Source: a virus. From it: 64,000 nucleotides of DNA. Position numbers and translations under genes: made by a program. Positions 28,954-42,176 of the stretch are shown piece by piece. The notes under the pieces are model-generated. The model did no database searches, was not told the DNA's origin, and saw only the letters and a program-made list of their open reading frames with translations. The stretch is from positions 1 through 64,000 of IMG/VR virus record IMGVR_UViG_3300020457_000007; one strand, given 5' to 3'. Every line of letters starts with the position of its first letter. Positions within the stretch are counted from its first letter, which is position 1.

Positions 28954-28961
28954 CTATTTAG
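28954..28961 (-). promoter_or_regulatory. Late promoter for gp13-gp16 (CTAAATAG)
   Basis: Minus-strand CTAAATAG, 22 bases before the gp13 ATG. The TAA within it is the stop codon of the ParB-like gene (28958-28960). Confidence 0.6.
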
Positions 28962-29392
28962 ACAGATATGAAATGTCGCTTTAATACACTAAAAGGTATG
29001 AAGTAAAATTGACCTTCTGTTAGACCCATAGAAATCATCTTGGCCATACGATGCTTACCATCTAAGAGTCTGTACTTGTCGTTATATGGATTTGATATAT
29101 CTGATATAATTCCTGGGTACAATTCAGGATCCTTACGTGCCCCAAAGCAACAAGGGCAATTATCAAAGGACTGGTGAGGATATAGATGCTTTCCTTTCCA
29201 AGCAATGTCCTCAAATTGAACTGTGATTAAATTCTCATCTATTAGATATGGTAAACAAGATTCTATAGGTATGTCAACAGCAGAAAAAGGGAACTCCTTA
29301 CGGAATCCCCAATCTCCAAATGATCTTACCTCGTATGCAGTCTTCTTATACCAAGGGTGGTGATACCACTTAGCTTTCGTTGAGGAGTTCAC
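28958..29392 (-). CDS. ParB/sulfiredoxin-fold-like protein (144 aa)
   Basis: The C-terminal half contains 'ISNPYNDKYRLLDGKHRMAKMISMG' near residues 105-130. This corresponds to the ParB/Srx signature (nP ... y.llDGhHR..a....G). A CPCC motif lies near residue 78. The N-terminal third has many aromatic and His residues (KWYHHPWYKK). ParB-fold proteins include nucleases, CTPases and kinases, and I cannot say which applies. It is an unusual gene in a fibre-neck cluster. It overlaps the preceding coiled-coil gene by 23 bases. Confidence 0.75.
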   Translation of the reverse strand: MNSSTKAKWYHHPWYKKTAYEVRSFGDWGFRKEFPFSAVDIPIESCLPYLIDENLITVQFEDIAWKGKHLYPHQSFDNCPCCFGARKDPELYPGIISDISNPYNDKYRLLDGKHRMAKMISMGLTEGQFYFIPFSVLKRHFISV

Positions 29393-29669: not shown

Positions 29670-32600
29670 TTATGCCTGTGACTCACTCCAAGAAATACGT
29701 CCTGTAACTGTGAATGGGTTGGAGTTATCAACACCCGTCAAGTCAACAGGTTCTGCGGTAACCGTTAGTAGGTCAGGTCCGTTCGGGAAGATACCGTCAC
29801 CACCAAGGATGGAGTTACCCATCTCAATGATAGAACTAATATCGTAGGAAGTAGCACCTGTACCACGCTTACCTGTGTTGTCAATCTGACCACCTGCTGC
29901 ACGGAAGGAGAAGATCTCAAGTCCACCAGCGTAGGTGTCGTCATTCGTGTGTTTAATCAACTGTGATAGAGATGGAGGTGCCACGTCTAAGTAAGAGTCA
30001 GTTGATAGAGATGGGTTCAGGATTAGTTTTACTTCGCACTCGTGTGTGTTAACAACGTCGAGAGAGTTGAGCTGCAACTGCATTCGGTTGATAATCTCAC
30101 GTTCACCCAAGTTACCAGATAGAGACGAGTCAACAGAAGGTGACAGTCTAATTGATACAAGAGGTATCTGCGAAGGAACGGTGTTGTCAGTACCAGCTGG
30201 TGCACCAACAGCGAACTGTGTGCCGTTTGGAACTGCTGGATTACCAAGAGCATTATTGATAATGCTAACACCTTGGTTGTACTGGAACGTTGTGTTACCG
30301 TTAGTATCGATGTACTGGAAGTCAACCTCTAGGTTACCACCTGAGATTCTTGATCTGTAGATTGCACGACCGTCAACGAACCATCCGTTAGCTGTACTTG
30401 CCTGATACACTGTAGTACCCTGCGTTAGCTTAGATGACTCACCAGTTGGGAAGTAAGTTCTGAGATAGAATCTCATATTACGTGACCAACCTTCTCCGAT
30501 CTGCCACTGCGAGCGAACGATTGATTGAGACTGAGTAGTTGCGTTCTGTGACACTTCGTTGGTGAACTTAAGCAAGTTACCAGACGCTGTGAAGAGGTAC
30601 GCTTTGTCAGAGTCAAATCGACCATCAGTGATGATAGAAGTACCCCAGTGGAACAGACTTGGAATGTATGATGGAATTCCAGTGTTGTGAATCTCGTAAC
30701 GAGCAGGGAGGTTACCTGATCTGAAGTATGCTTCAGTCAAGCGGTTGTTGTGCTTGAATTCGTGTACGTACTTGACGTGACCATTTTGATCTTTGAATCC
30801 AAAGCGAATTTTACCTGCTCCATACCAAGAGTAATCCATATATGCCATCTGGATCTTAGTGATGTCCAGAATGAATCCAGACTTACCAGAACCATCGCAC
30901 TTATCGACGTTCCACTCACCTTGAGGGATCTTGGTATCGATTGTCTTGGTTAGAATAATGTTTGCAGCAGTAATACCCTTGTACTGTGGCTGAATGATCA
31001 AGCTATCGTTGTTAACAACTCGGATAACCTTATGTGACTGTCCACGAATAACGATGTACTCACCAGCTACTATCTGTGATAGGAATGATGTATCAGAACC
31101 TGTTACAACGTTAGAACCCTTACTTACAGATACACGACCTGTTAACTGAGTAGTTGAACTACGACGTACAGCACTCAATACAGCACCATTATACTCGAAG
31201 AACATACCGTTCTGGAAGTCAAACATACCACAACGTACATTAGAGTTAGTCCAGTTGATTACGTGGTATCCAGTAAATCCACCAGCAGCAGACGAGGTTG
31301 GTGCCTGATCTAGGTTATAACTGAATGTGAATGCGTCATAGATGTATGCGATCGGATAGGATCCATTGTAACTGTTATCAGTAGCATCAACGAACTCACA
31401 GTTTGTACCAACCTCAAGGTTGTGTGGGAGTTTCGTTTGTACTGCAACACGGTGTACAACAGTACCATCAACATATGGTACATACCAAGCACGGATAGAA
31501 GGATTCTTCGGTGCGAAGTTGATAGCGAGTGATACCTGTATACCTTTACCTGACTGGTAACGGAAGTATCTACGTGTCTGTCTGACGATCTGTCCATCAG
31601 GTGACTTACTGGTTCCGATATCCATACCACCGTCAAACGGTCTGTGTAGGAAGTATCCATCTGGACGTACATAGATCGAAGTATCGATGAAGTACTCAGT
31701 GTCACCAGCAGAGTTAACAGCACCCGTTGTGAAGGCAGCTGCATCAGCCATTAGGAGTTCAGTGTCATCCTTAATAGCAGAAATGGTTGTTGATACAATT
31801 GTGAATGTACCAGGAGAGTTGTTATTGACATATCTGAATACATCACCAACTTTGAAGTAACGTGTGAATGTAGTATCAGTACCAATTGCGATACGTGAAC
31901 CAGTATTCAATGCGATAGTACCATTACCGATAACCTGTCCATCCATATTGGTGTGGATCAGTTTCTGTGCAGGTGTCTGTGAACCGCCAGTTGTTAATGT
32001 AACGTTAGTACCAGCAACTGCAAGTGCAGCAGATTCTGCCAACTTGATATGGTCTTGGTCAACAACGATAACGAAGTAGTCTCTGTTATCTGTCAATCCA
32101 CCAATGGTTGTACCACCAGCATCTTGATAGATTACACGTTGACCAGTTCTCATAAAGTGATCCTGAATTTGCAGGGTCATATTAGTCGTGTCAACAATAC
32201 CACCTGACGCAATTTCTCTTGCATCAAATGTCTTAGTTGTTGGGACGATTTGGAATGGAACGTCAACAACGAGTTGAGTTTCACTCTTGACGAGAGATAC
32301 GTTGTAAGCACCGTCAGTCGCACCAAAAGCAGCAGTCTGGTTCTCGAAGACCTGAGTACCAGATCCAGCTGATGTGAGGTCTTGCTCACTACCTGGGTAT
32401 GAGAACGAAACGCTGTTGCCAAGTACGAATCTATCATTTGATGCTACACGGATGTAATAAGTTTGGTTAGGTGTTAAGTTACCAATTGAAGTACCAGCAG
32501 TTGTGTAGAATACACGCTCACCGTTAGACAAGTTATGGTTCTGATAGTAAATAGTGTTCTTTGTTGGGTTAACAAAGAGACCAGTCATACCATAGGTACC

Positions 32601-35048
32601 TCTAGCATCTAGTAGTCTGTAAGGTGATGAACCTGTACTTGGTTTAATTCTAAATCTGTTATCATCTACTCTCTCAGCATATACTGTAGCTGGTAGAGAT
32701 AGGTTTGTGATTCCATCGTTGTTGTAATAGTAACGTGGATCGTCACCAGCAGTCTTAGTAATAACGATTTGGTCGTTAGTTACTGCACCGTGGTTCTCAA
32801 CGTAGAAAGTATCGTCATCATTTGAACGATCCTGTACTAACATCAAGTAAGCGTTACCATAGTAATCTTGGTTATGTCCATATACCCAAGAACCGTGTCC
32901 ACGATAGTATCCATTCCACCAGTCATATCCATAACGGAAGTGGAATCCATTACCTGAATCTAGTGAGTAGTTATAACGATATCTGTTTGAACGATAGGTG
33001 TCTCTATCGTACATAGGACCCCAGTTACCATTTGTTAGAGTAGTTGGCTCTTCTGGTAGGTAGTCATTGTAGTTCCAACCTGGGTTGTATCCCCAAACTG
33101 AGTTACCACCATTGTACCAAGGGTTGTTGAATCTTCCGTCGTAGTTAGAGTTGTTTAAGTTACCTGAACCATTGTACTGACGACGGTTCATTGTTAAGAA
33201 GAATGCTCTGTTCCACTGGGAGTTAGAGATACCTCTGTTGCTTGAAATCTGGTTAAAGTCATAGCCTGAATGTGTTGAACCGAAGTTCCAAGCAGACCAT
33301 CTATATCTCCAGTACCAGTCCCACCAAGGTTTCTCATCAGAAACGTATCTATGTACTAGAGCAAAGTTGTGCTTACCATAGTTGTAAGTAGCTGCATTAC
33401 CCTGAAGTGAACTACTATCGTTCGCAAGGTTGATGATACCATTGGAACCTGGGTTACCACCAGAAGAAGCAGAGAAATATGCATTAGAAAGTTTAACTAC
33501 AGCTGTACCACCATCAGCAGATGATGTGGATTCTACACGAGTGTTGTAGATACCGTGACGTTGTAAGTTTTCAATACAATAGTCACCTGGGTTTGGATAG
33601 TAAAGTAAGCAATACCTAGAACGCATATAGTTAGCGTTAGTACCCTTCAAGGTAACTGTATGGTTAGTATAGTCTACATCACCATCATTAACTGTCCAAA
33701 GAGCAGTTGGTTTATGGTCATATGGTTGGAACTGTGACATATCAGGTGTGATAGTCGCAGTGATTGTATCTTCATAGTCAACTACAGGTCTAGAGTCAGC
33801 AGCAGTTGCTGTTGTGTTAGCTACCTGTAGGATCTTAGGAGAAATGGTGTTAACGAAGTACAATGCAGTACCGTTAGCAAAACCATTCTCGAATGAAGTT
33901 GAAAGAACAACTTTAGAAGTTGTTGCAGGTGTGAAGGACATTTCAAATCCAACACCTGTGTTACCAGCCTGTGCATCATATGCATACAGAGTGGCAGGAG
34001 TATTATCTGTTACGTATATACGAACATAGGCACCAGTAGTACCTTCTGTTCCATTTGTGTAAACACCATCAGTATATGCAACACCACCACCGTGGATACC
34101 ATCAGCAGTAGTAGATACTCTGAATGGGTGTCCAATGTTGGAAGCATCGTGTACATTGAAGATGTACATACCGTTCTTATTAACGGTAAAGACTGACGTA
34201 CCAACAACAACGTCATCAAGAGCAAAGTAGTTCTGTCCACCAACAGCTATGACAGTAACATCATATTCAAATGTGTCGGAAAGAATACCCTTATCTGTTT
34301 GAAGACTAATGGCAGAACCTTCGTAGAACAGACCTGGAATAATACTTGTATATGAACCTGCAATGTCAGCACTAATTGCCTGAGTAGCACGTGCCTTATA
34401 TGTAAAGGTAGTTGCACTAGGTACAGACTGAATTAGGTATGAACCTTCAGCAGTTGTAGATGCAAGACCAGATACAACAATAGGAACACCAGATGTAAGA
34501 CTGTGCTCATATAGAGTAGTAACAGTTACAACGTCAGAGTTAGCTGTAACTTCTACAGTCTGAATATAAGGTATTGTTGTGTCAGATGTAGCAGAGTAAG
34601 TAGAAGGAATGTTGTTAACCAACTGTAGAGTTTCCCACTTAGTTGCCTGTGGCCCGTACTCAAAGTCGGTGTCAATCATCGTTTCTGGGTTTGAAACTCT
34701 CATTTTTGACACAGGGTCAATTAGAGTTTCAGACGGTTCAAACGCCATATAGTCTGATTCTACAAAGATCTGTAGCTTATCAGTTCCTGACATTGTACTG
34801 GTATCTGCAGCCAGTGTAATAACAGTTTCTTCAAAGTCCTCATTGTAATCACAACCTGTCTGGTTAGCAGCAGTTTGGAATCCTTTTGTAGGATCTGAGA
34901 AGTTGTATAAAATCTCGTTGTCGGTAACATTAGTAATCAGAAGGATTCTTTCTCCTGATATGTTATCCTTAATTGAAACAGTACCACCCGTTAACGTAAC
35001 GTTATCATACGGTACGAAGGTATAGTCACTGATTAGTTTCTTTGCCAT
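29670..35048 (-). CDS. Large modular virion/tail-fibre protein (1792 aa)
   Basis: The N-terminus (MAKKLISDYTFVPYDNVTL) starts a beta-rich region. Residues about 270-375 resemble a cupredoxin-like virion domain. Residues about 572-740 are exceptionally rich in Trp, Tyr, Asn, Gly and Arg. Repeated beta modules follow (residues ~760-1050), then a region with 'HRPFDGGMDIGTS' and 'RRYFRYQSGKGIQVSLAINFAP' near 1130-1170. Such large proteins are annotated as structural or fibre components in cyanophages. Receptor contact is plausible for the aromatic-rich part. It is followed by a strong terminator. Confidence 0.85.
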   Translation of the reverse strand: MAKKLISDYTFVPYDNVTLTGGTVSIKDNISGERILLITNVTDNEILYNFSDPTKGFQTAANQTGCDYNEDFEETVITLAADTSTMSGTDKLQIFVESDYMAFEPSETLIDPVSKMRVSNPETMIDTDFEYGPQATKWETLQLVNNIPSTYSATSDTTIPYIQTVEVTANSDVVTVTTLYEHSLTSGVPIVVSGLASTTAEGSYLIQSVPSATTFTYKARATQAISADIAGSYTSIIPGLFYEGSAISLQTDKGILSDTFEYDVTVIAVGGQNYFALDDVVVGTSVFTVNKNGMYIFNVHDASNIGHPFRVSTTADGIHGGGVAYTDGVYTNGTEGTTGAYVRIYVTDNTPATLYAYDAQAGNTGVGFEMSFTPATTSKVVLSTSFENGFANGTALYFVNTISPKILQVANTTATAADSRPVVDYEDTITATITPDMSQFQPYDHKPTALWTVNDGDVDYTNHTVTLKGTNANYMRSRYCLLYYPNPGDYCIENLQRHGIYNTRVESTSSADGGTAVVKLSNAYFSASSGGNPGSNGIINLANDSSSLQGNAATYNYGKHNFALVHRYVSDEKPWWDWYWRYRWSAWNFGSTHSGYDFNQISSNRGISNSQWNRAFFLTMNRRQYNGSGNLNNSNYDGRFNNPWYNGGNSVWGYNPGWNYNDYLPEEPTTLTNGNWGPMYDRDTYRSNRYRYNYSLDSGNGFHFRYGYDWWNGYYRGHGSWVYGHNQDYYGNAYLMLVQDRSNDDDTFYVENHGAVTNDQIVITKTAGDDPRYYYNNDGITNLSLPATVYAERVDDNRFRIKPSTGSSPYRLLDARGTYGMTGLFVNPTKNTIYYQNHNLSNGERVFYTTAGTSIGNLTPNQTYYIRVASNDRFVLGNSVSFSYPGSEQDLTSAGSGTQVFENQTAAFGATDGAYNVSLVKSETQLVVDVPFQIVPTTKTFDAREIASGGIVDTTNMTLQIQDHFMRTGQRVIYQDAGGTTIGGLTDNRDYFVIVVDQDHIKLAESAALAVAGTNVTLTTGGSQTPAQKLIHTNMDGQVIGNGTIALNTGSRIAIGTDTTFTRYFKVGDVFRYVNNNSPGTFTIVSTTISAIKDDTELLMADAAAFTTGAVNSAGDTEYFIDTSIYVRPDGYFLHRPFDGGMDIGTSKSPDGQIVRQTRRYFRYQSGKGIQVSLAINFAPKNPSIRAWYVPYVDGTVVHRVAVQTKLPHNLEVGTNCEFVDATDNSYNGSYPIAYIYDAFTFSYNLDQAPTSSAAGGFTGYHVINWTNSNVRCGMFDFQNGMFFEYNGAVLSAVRRSSTTQLTGRVSVSKGSNVVTGSDTSFLSQIVAGEYIVIRGQSHKVIRVVNNDSLIIQPQYKGITAANIILTKTIDTKIPQGEWNVDKCDGSGKSGFILDITKIQMAYMDYSWYGAGKIRFGFKDQNGHVKYVHEFKHNNRLTEAYFRSGNLPARYEIHNTGIPSYIPSLFHWGTSIITDGRFDSDKAYLFTASGNLLKFTNEVSQNATTQSQSIVRSQWQIGEGWSRNMRFYLRTYFPTGESSKLTQGTTVYQASTANGWFVDGRAIYRSRISGGNLEVDFQYIDTNGNTTFQYNQGVSIINNALGNPAVPNGTQFAVGAPAGTDNTVPSQIPLVSIRLSPSVDSSLSGNLGEREIINRMQLQLNSLDVVNTHECEVKLILNPSLSTDSYLDVAPPSLSQLIKHTNDDTYAGGLEIFSFRAAGGQIDNTGKRGTGATSYDISSIIEMGNSILGGDGIFPNGPDLLTVTAEPVDLTGVDNSNPFTVTGRISWSESQA

Positions 35049-35382: not shown

Positions 35383-36549
35383 TTACACATTCATTGTGAT
35401 TCTTGTGAACTGAATAAAGGTTCCTATTGTGGCAGTTGCAGAGAGTTCTAGATTAGCACCATTCATTGCAGCAGTAAATGTAGCTACTGCATTTCCTGGA
35501 TTTGAATGTACATCACCGTACATTGTGACGAATGCATCGGTTCCGTCGTGAGTAAGAATTACTTCACTGGTTGAGACGTGTCCACCGTGTGAAGCATATA
35601 CTGTATATTTTGCACCACGTACATTTGCAGCAACTAAAGTATCAAATGCTTCGGTTGCAGATGTTGTAGTTAATGTACCAGCACTAATACCTGTCTTATC
35701 TGTAATATTAATGTGGTCTGAATTATTTGTAGTACCAATCTTAACCACTGAAGAACAGGATATATCTCCTGTGACAGTAAGAGTTAGAGGAATATGAGTA
35801 TCGTAATTATTGTATATTGAAGATCCTCTTATTTCTAATGCTGGACTTGCTTGGTTACTAATATGGAAACTAATATTTTGATTAGTTGTACTGATCTCAC
35901 TAAAGTTACCATTCTCTTTTAAAGAAATAGTATTATTGAATAGTGGATGTGTATTGTTTAACTGTATAGATCCCAGAAGAGTTGTGTCATCTGGTTTTAG
36001 TAGCAATGATCCATCACCACCAACTAACCTAGCTTGATTAGCAGTAGTACCAAATTTAAGTTCTTTGTTATTGTCTAACTGTATATCACCAGCAGACAAG
36101 TGTAGACGTGCAGTCGGGTTTGCAGTTCCGATACCTACACGGTGATTGATATGATCAATTACAAGTGTTGTACTATCTAAGTTAGTAGCACCAGTAACAT
36201 CCAGTCCACCCATAGTAAAGGTAGCACCTTGGTTTAATTTGATAGCACTAATAGTACCATCAGAAGGTTCACCAACATCTATAGTATCTCCAATAACCAA
36301 TCCAAAGAAATCAATACCTGGATTAGGAGGATCGGAAAATGTTAATTGATCGTTATTAATCTGGAAAGCAACGTTTGCTTCTTGCATTACACCACCAAGT
36401 GATATAAGCAACTGTAAAGGAGAGCCAGGATATATTACTTGTCCACCAACACGCAAATTGAAAGTAGTCAACACACCATTAAACTGTGAAGCTACGTCAT
36501 CCAATTTACGGATGTTACCTATCTTTGGTGTTATGCCTAAGTATGCCAT
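35383..36549 (-). CDS. Tail-fibre-like protein (388 aa)
   Basis: The N-terminal about 90 residues (MAYLGITP...SQFNGV...QLLISLGGV...FFGLVIGD) match the start of the 455-aa protein further up, suggesting a shared attachment domain. The middle has 'VGIGTANPTARLHLSAGDIQLDNNKELKFG', typical of phage fibre and pyocin-type repeats. The C-terminal about 95 residues (AANVRGAKYTVYASHGG ... ILTHDGTDAFV) match the end of the 514-aa protein. It is probably a trimeric fibre, part of the adhesin gene set. Confidence 0.8.
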   Translation of the reverse strand: MAYLGITPKIGNIRKLDDVASQFNGVLTTFNLRVGGQVIYPGSPLQLLISLGGVMQEANVAFQINNDQLTFSDPPNPGIDFFGLVIGDTIDVGEPSDGTISAIKLNQGATFTMGGLDVTGATNLDSTTLVIDHINHRVGIGTANPTARLHLSAGDIQLDNNKELKFGTTANQARLVGGDGSLLLKPDDTTLLGSIQLNNTHPLFNNTISLKENGNFSEISTTNQNISFHISNQASPALEIRGSSIYNNYDTHIPLTLTVTGDISCSSVVKIGTTNNSDHINITDKTGISAGTLTTTSATEAFDTLVAANVRGAKYTVYASHGGHVSTSEVILTHDGTDAFVTMYGDVHSNPGNAVATFTAAMNGANLELSATATIGTFIQFTRITMNV

Positions 36550-40631: not shown

Positions 40632-42176
40632 CTAGGCAGTAATGAGGTCTCTGAAATACTTGATAGTATTCGTAGCGTATACAGGAGTGAAGATAATTTC
40701 AATATTCGCTCCATTGTACTGAGCAGTGATGGTACCTAGACCACCTTGTGCAATACCACCTGAAGTTACAGTTGCATATTCCTCAACGTATATGTCAGTT
40801 CCATCGTGAAGGATGAGAACTTCTTTTACCTGAGTATATGCACCAGATGTGCACTGGACAACATACTTACCACTACTGTAAGTAGCAGAAGTAAATGAAT
40901 CAATAACTGCTGCTGTGATAGAAGCAGTAGTAGCTGTACCAGCATCAGATCCGTGTATGTCCTTAACTGTAATTAAGGATCCACCAGCAGTATCATCATA
41001 ACGAACTTTTTCGTTTCCACCTAAGCACATTCCCATTTGGTCAGGGCCTGGACGGTAGAAACCATTGTCCTGATCCTGATAGAAACTAATACCTGGAATA
41101 GCCTCTGTACCGTCGCCAGCACCAGTGAAACCAGACAGGTTAGTTAATCCATTACCATCTCCAATGAATGCTGTAGCACCTACAGTACCATTGACTTGCA
41201 TTATCTGAGCAAGAGCGTTGTTTGGATCTTGTCCAATACCGATCTTGTTGTTGGTAGGATCTAACTTGAACAATGCAACGTTAGAACCTGTTGGTTCCAT
41301 TGTTACGACTGCACCGTCAAACTTGACATATGAGTTAGCACCCGATACATCAACTTCAACTGCATCAATATTAGACTGTAGTGTACCTAATGTATAGGTA
41401 ACATCACCAACAGTACTACCAGTAAAACTACCAGTACCTATTGCAAACTTATCTTCTGACTCGTCAAATCCAATAAAAGCATTATCTTCAGAACCACGTT
41501 CAATAACTAAACCAGAGTCACCAGTTGGTGCTCCTACAATACCATTTCCAAGTTCAATTAATTTATCACCAATTACAGTGTTAGTTGTGGTGATTGTTGA
41601 AGTACCACCTAGTACAGTCAACTCACCATTGATTATTACATTATTCGCAACTTCTAAATCTTGTGTTGGTGTTCCAACTCCGATACCGACTTTACCTTCT
41701 CCTGTAACAACTAGTGCATCAGATAGTGTATTAAGTCCACTACCAGTGACTCCTCCAGCAGGTGATGTCTTAATACGTAAATATCCACCTGAAGCAGAAC
41801 CAGTAGATGCTCCACCAGCAATGATTAAGTCAGATCCAGAAACGTCTGTACCACTAGCATCATCTCTACCAACCTTACCAGTAACAGATAGTGTGGTAGC
41901 TACAGATGCTGCATTGAAATTAAAAGTACTTGTTCCATCTATCTTAGATGGTGTGATTGCACCGTCTTGAATAACAGCAGTTCCAACAGCTTCCAGTCCA
42001 CCAGTAGAACTTAGTTTCTGAGTAGTAATGCTGTTGTCAGCTAGTTTTAACGTAGTTATTGCACCATTTCTGATAGTAGAAGTAGTGACCGCCTGGGTAC
42101 CAACTCCGCTATCTAGCTTTGAGTCACTAACCAGCCCATCGTTCAAACCAGTTCTTCTGATTCTTGTTAGAGCCAT
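40632..42176 (-). CDS. Tail-fibre-like protein (514 aa)
   Basis: The first about 85 residues contain repeats of 'IRNGAITTLKLADNSIT'-type (I-dGaITt-KLad-sIt), typical of phage fibre shafts. 'GKVGIGVGTPTQDLEVANNVIINGELTVLGGT' near residues 160-195 and 'FIGDGNGLTNLSG' near 340 are further fibre motifs. The C-terminal about 100 residues resemble those of the 388-aa protein. It is probably a trimeric fibre. It occupies the T4 gp11/gp12 region of the gene order but shows no clear homology to those. Confidence 0.8.
   Translation of the reverse strand: MALTRIRRTGLNDGLVSDSKLDSGVGTQAVTTSTIRNGAITTLKLADNSITTQKLSSTGGLEAVGTAVIQDGAITPSKIDGTSTFNFNAASVATTLSVTGKVGRDDASGTDVSGSDLIIAGGASTGSASGGYLRIKTSPAGGVTGSGLNTLSDALVVTGEGKVGIGVGTPTQDLEVANNVIINGELTVLGGTSTITTTNTVIGDKLIELGNGIVGAPTGDSGLVIERGSEDNAFIGFDESEDKFAIGTGSFTGSTVGDVTYTLGTLQSNIDAVEVDVSGANSYVKFDGAVVTMEPTGSNVALFKLDPTNNKIGIGQDPNNALAQIMQVNGTVGATAFIGDGNGLTNLSGFTGAGDGTEAIPGISFYQDQDNGFYRPGPDQMGMCLGGNEKVRYDDTAGGSLITVKDIHGSDAGTATTASITAAVIDSFTSATYSSGKYVVQCTSGAYTQVKEVLILHDGTDIYVEEYATVTSGGIAQGGLGTITAQYNGANIEIIFTPVYATNTIKYFRDLITA

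Follow-up and report, generated by a model that had tools for sequence, protein, structure and literature searches.

Receptors and receptor-binding proteins of the marine T4-like cyanophages are poorly known. In pelagimyophages and cyanomyophages a host recognition cluster sits between VrlC and gp14 (PMC7029224). The virion structural proteins of PHROG 5838 (T4-GC 863), such as S-PM2d173, Syn1_216 and SBM3_00190 of phage S-BM3, share an N-terminal region and a C-terminal core, and their genes lie beside fibre-like or structural genes, directly before gp13 in S-BM3, S-CAM1 and S-CAM3. A coevolution study (PMC9910659) places the S-PM2 ORF two genes upstream of the homologue in a putative block of adhesin genes, of which the homologue itself is a possible member. 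Here, we describe a 1792-aa member of this family from an uncultured T4-like cyanomyophage, in which a stretch of about 170 residues rich in Trp, Tyr, Asn and Arg has, by sequence comparison, the look of a conserved module specific to one lineage and not of a receptor-binding tip that changes rapidly.

The window is a 64,000-nucleotide stretch of DNA (positions 1 to 64,000 of IMG/VR record IMGVR_UViG_3300020457_000007). For the major capsid protein the best matches are in Synechococcus phages (64%), and genes of the Photo_RC (psbA/psbD) family are present in two long relatives (187 kb and 149 kb), so that a cyanobacterial host, as in the original prediction, is well supported; no Photo_RC gene was found in the window's own 88-kb record, which is possibly a fragment. 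In transcription order, a gp8 homologue is followed by a 2752-aa protein with a DUF4815 match and by a run of ORFs, several of which match tail-fibre families; then come the 1792-aa gene (29670-35048, minus strand), a 144-aa ORF, and the gp13, gp14 and gp15 homologues. This order fits the described host recognition cluster (PMC7029224), with the 2752-aa protein as a putative VrlC, and places the 1792-aa gene among tail-fibre-like genes. The 144-aa ORF (28958-29392, minus strand) is present in only some contigs of the lineage (L002, L004, L013, L020 and L122) and went undetected in others spanning the same place (e.g. L014, L019, L007 and L015).

The 1792-aa protein is a member of PHROG 5838 (phrog_5838, E 1.1e-192, a profile match over the conserved C-terminal core), and its relatives are annotated as virion structural proteins; it is evidently modular. 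Those relatives are found in Synechococcus phages S-BM3, S-PM2, S-CAM1, S-CAM3, S-H9-1 and Syn1 and in marine virus AG-345-P14. Residues 1-262 (34263-35048, minus strand, as are all segments of the protein given below) form an N-terminal region for which HMM searches (E 1e-35 to 1e-58) show counterparts, over approximately residues 1-250, in S-BM3, S-PM2, S-CAM1, Syn1 and a freshwater podovirus. Residues 262-375 (33924-34265) constitute a module that tblastn also locates in different proteins across 92 marine phage records, Pelagibacter phages among them, and that has no match to a Pfam family. Residues 376-571 have no tblastn match in phage records, with weak profile matches to part of them in S-BM3 and the podovirus (E 2e-4 and 9e-4); within this interval, residues 405-571 (33336-33836) are a lineage-specific region immediately preceding the aromatic segment at residues 572-740 (32829-33335). 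Repeated small modules follow at residues 741-1090 (31779-32828), with remote copies in relatives and repeated HMM matches at profile positions 770-1030 in contigs L022, L036 and L064, and the protein ends in the conserved C-terminal core (residues 1091-1792, matched from about residue 1100; 29670-31778; E down to 1e-196). Comparison of a lineage profile with relatives shows that S-BM3, S-CAM1, S-PM2, L040 and a podovirus from Manatee Spring keep both ends of the protein and differ in the middle, which in other lineages consists of repeated small modules, other sequence, or little at all. The podovirus relative, in a 40-kb freshwater genome (L105:3526-8736), spans both ends of the myovirus protein, which implies transfer between tail types.

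Composition sets residues 572-740 apart, as had been proposed for the span 32820-33345, which is the same interval plus a few bases. The segment holds 14 of the 25 Trp residues in the protein (hypergeometric P 5e-9), amounting to 8.3% of its residues vs 0.7% in the rest, and is also enriched in Tyr (13.0% vs 5.4%, P 3e-4), Asn (15.4% vs 7.0%, P 3e-4) and Arg (7.7% vs 3.7%, P 0.016), with Val, Ile, Ala, Thr and Lys depleted; Gly alone is not significantly enriched (11.8% vs 8.9%, P 0.13). The best 169-residue window of the protein contains 37 W+Y and 97 W+Y+N+G+R, values never reached in 2000 shuffles of the protein, whose maxima were 31 and 73. Composition-optimal borders are residues 575-732 (32853-33326), scored with residue frequencies drawn from the segment itself, and no other window ORF of at least 100 aa has a 60-residue stretch as rich in W/Y as the one found here. 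Its GC content (0.42) equals that of the rest of the ORF and so gives no base-composition sign of foreign origin. W-rich ORFs are also present in some other loci.

Clusters of aromatic residues and Asn are common in glycan-binding sites, and the aromatic-ladder repeats that bind cell surfaces through choline or glucans have a high content of Trp, Tyr, Gly and Asn. The segment shares this richness but lacks a Pfam match, and the two parts of it that were compared (residues 600-672 and 668-745) show no significant similarity to each other. Composition-biased adhesins are also known among phages, as in the glycine-rich gp38-type adhesins of T-even phages; the segment is likewise biased, but contains only 12% Gly and has no hypervariable loops. 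No carbohydrate-binding, lectin or adhesin family matched it in Pfam, NCBIfam or the PDB sequences.

Three independent seed sets recover the segment from the same approximately 21 related IMG/VR viral contigs only, and seeds from residues 405-571 recover these contigs and no others. No relative outside this one lineage was found among viral contigs, phage records, 85,000 bacterial and archaeal genomes (scanned with two seed sets), PDB or Pfam, although remote relatives could be missed because the seeded scans require short near-exact peptide matches and the BLAST low-complexity filter may mask the segment. The PHROG 5838 homologues examined lack it and have no clear match to residues 405-571. 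The middle of the S-BM3 homologue (residues 415-795, L081:7243-8385) is mildly W-rich, with about a dozen Trp, and shows no profile match or detectable similarity to the segment. The segment had also been called an insert; it is at most a putative one, since none of the relatives compared has an empty site and the preceding region is confined to the same contigs.

Within the lineage, the segment is under purifying selection and nearly constant in length. Its dN/dS is 0.119, compared with 0.118 in the region before it, 0.115 after it and 0.09-0.21 elsewhere in the protein, and divergent members match the window protein at 66-81% identity over the segment vs roughly 67-97% elsewhere. Mean column identity is 83%, and one single-residue insertion is the only length change (13-15 sequences). 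Few residue types vary as little as Trp, which is invariant at 10 of 14 positions (15 sequences); Gly is invariant at 11 of 20, and changes at variable aromatic positions are mostly exchanges among Trp, Tyr and Phe. The share of invariant positions is smaller in the segment (0.33-0.41) than in the flanks (0.46-0.54), a hint that it may be slightly relaxed or exposed. The flank tree is not rejected by the segment data (AU p 0.25; 10 sequences, low power), even though in contig L010 the nearest neighbour in the segment differs from that outside it. Segment dS (1.74) is higher than in regions farther away (about 1.1), but this is not a sign of exchange, because at the two-fold NNY sites of residues that do not change the segment (0.317) falls among its neighbours, which span 0.285-0.356.

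Hypervariability within the lineage is instead located in the adjoining tail-fibre-like ORF (388 aa, 35383-36549, minus strand; phrog_18673). In the same genomes the middle of this ORF (approximately 35668-36099, alignment columns 151-300) has a dN/dS of 0.37-0.56 between conserved ends, with nonsynonymous differences reaching 46%, and it provides the dN/dS method with a positive control from within the data. A region diversifying at a host contact would be expected to look like this, although its dN/dS is below 1 and its function is a prediction.

The stability of the segment and its lack of relatives outside the lineage underlie its appearance as a conserved lineage-specific module. We tentatively favor a reading in which it folds as a domain or sub-domain peculiar to the lineage, has an aromatic core and surface, lies in the exchangeable middle of a modular tail- or neck-associated virion protein and contacts a conserved host-surface ligand. 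The ends of the protein are retained across the Kyanoviridae and its middle modules vary between lineages; the segment would fold around aromatic residues, part of its aromatic surface would be exposed, and these residues may contact a ligand conserved among hosts, for which a glycan is the simplest candidate, with strain-level specificity residing in the neighbouring fibre-like ORF. Folding is probable, and host contact is possible, slightly favored by the gene context; the lack of diversification weighs against it, being unusual for a surface that contacts a receptor. It is unlikely, in our estimate, that the segment represents an undescribed domain family with an aromatic/Asn/Arg-based fold that is so far limited to a single lineage of cyanomyophages and binds some conserved constituent of the outer surface of picocyanobacteria.

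Almost equally likely is a role that is purely structural. The aromatic residues together with Arg and Asn would then form an unusual core or a subunit-subunit interface that stabilises a fibre, collar or baseplate appendage, and no ligand would be involved. The segment's flank-like conservation, the retention of its aromatics as a class, the scarcity of aliphatic residues from which another core could be built, and the lack of diversifying selection – unlike in the neighbouring fibre-like ORF – are all consistent with such a role. However, relatives share the rest of the protein and lack the segment, which is thus dispensable for the general architecture, and the gene lies within a host recognition cluster.

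That the segment is instead a low-complexity, prion-like or disordered sticky linker is improbable. Its N/Y/G-rich composition would suit a linker, and AlphaFold models it with no confidence: the pLDDT is 28 for residues 540-790 (13 sequences) and 33 for residues 262-836 (15 sequences), with values near 20 in the segment and only residues 448-521 modelled, in part, near 70. The module at residues 262-375, common to many phages, is also low in the same model, so that low pLDDT reflects a shallow alignment and is not proof of disorder; a Foldseek search of the residue 262-836 model against PDB gave a best E of 0.55, uninformative at that pLDDT. The near-absence of length changes and the dispersed invariant Trp and Gly positions, moreover, are atypical of a linker. 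The original proposal of a fast-evolving receptor-binding tip that determines strain specificity is very improbable: gene position and the glycan-site-like aromatic/Asn clusters speak for it, but the flank-like dN/dS of 0.12, the AU test and the location of hypervariability in the adjoining ORF contradict it within the lineage. Conservation essentially at the level of the flanks is also one half of the outcome, the other being a buried core, that the proposal had itself named as counting against it.

Returning to the folded module that we favor, what survives of the proposed receptor-binding element is its composition, its gene position, the lineage-variable middle and the cyanophage assignment, whereas its hypervariability does not. 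A stable, lineage-specific module can now be told apart from the fast-changing fibre-like ORF beside it. Host-range work is pointed to that ORF rather than to the aromatic segment, and the segment, as a putative domain with no detectable relatives, is a target for structure determination. The fibre-like ORF at 35383-36549 and a second one at 40632-42176 (minus strand) are alike in their C-terminal parts (31-41% over approximately 70-120 residues across relatives), suggesting a shared terminal domain.
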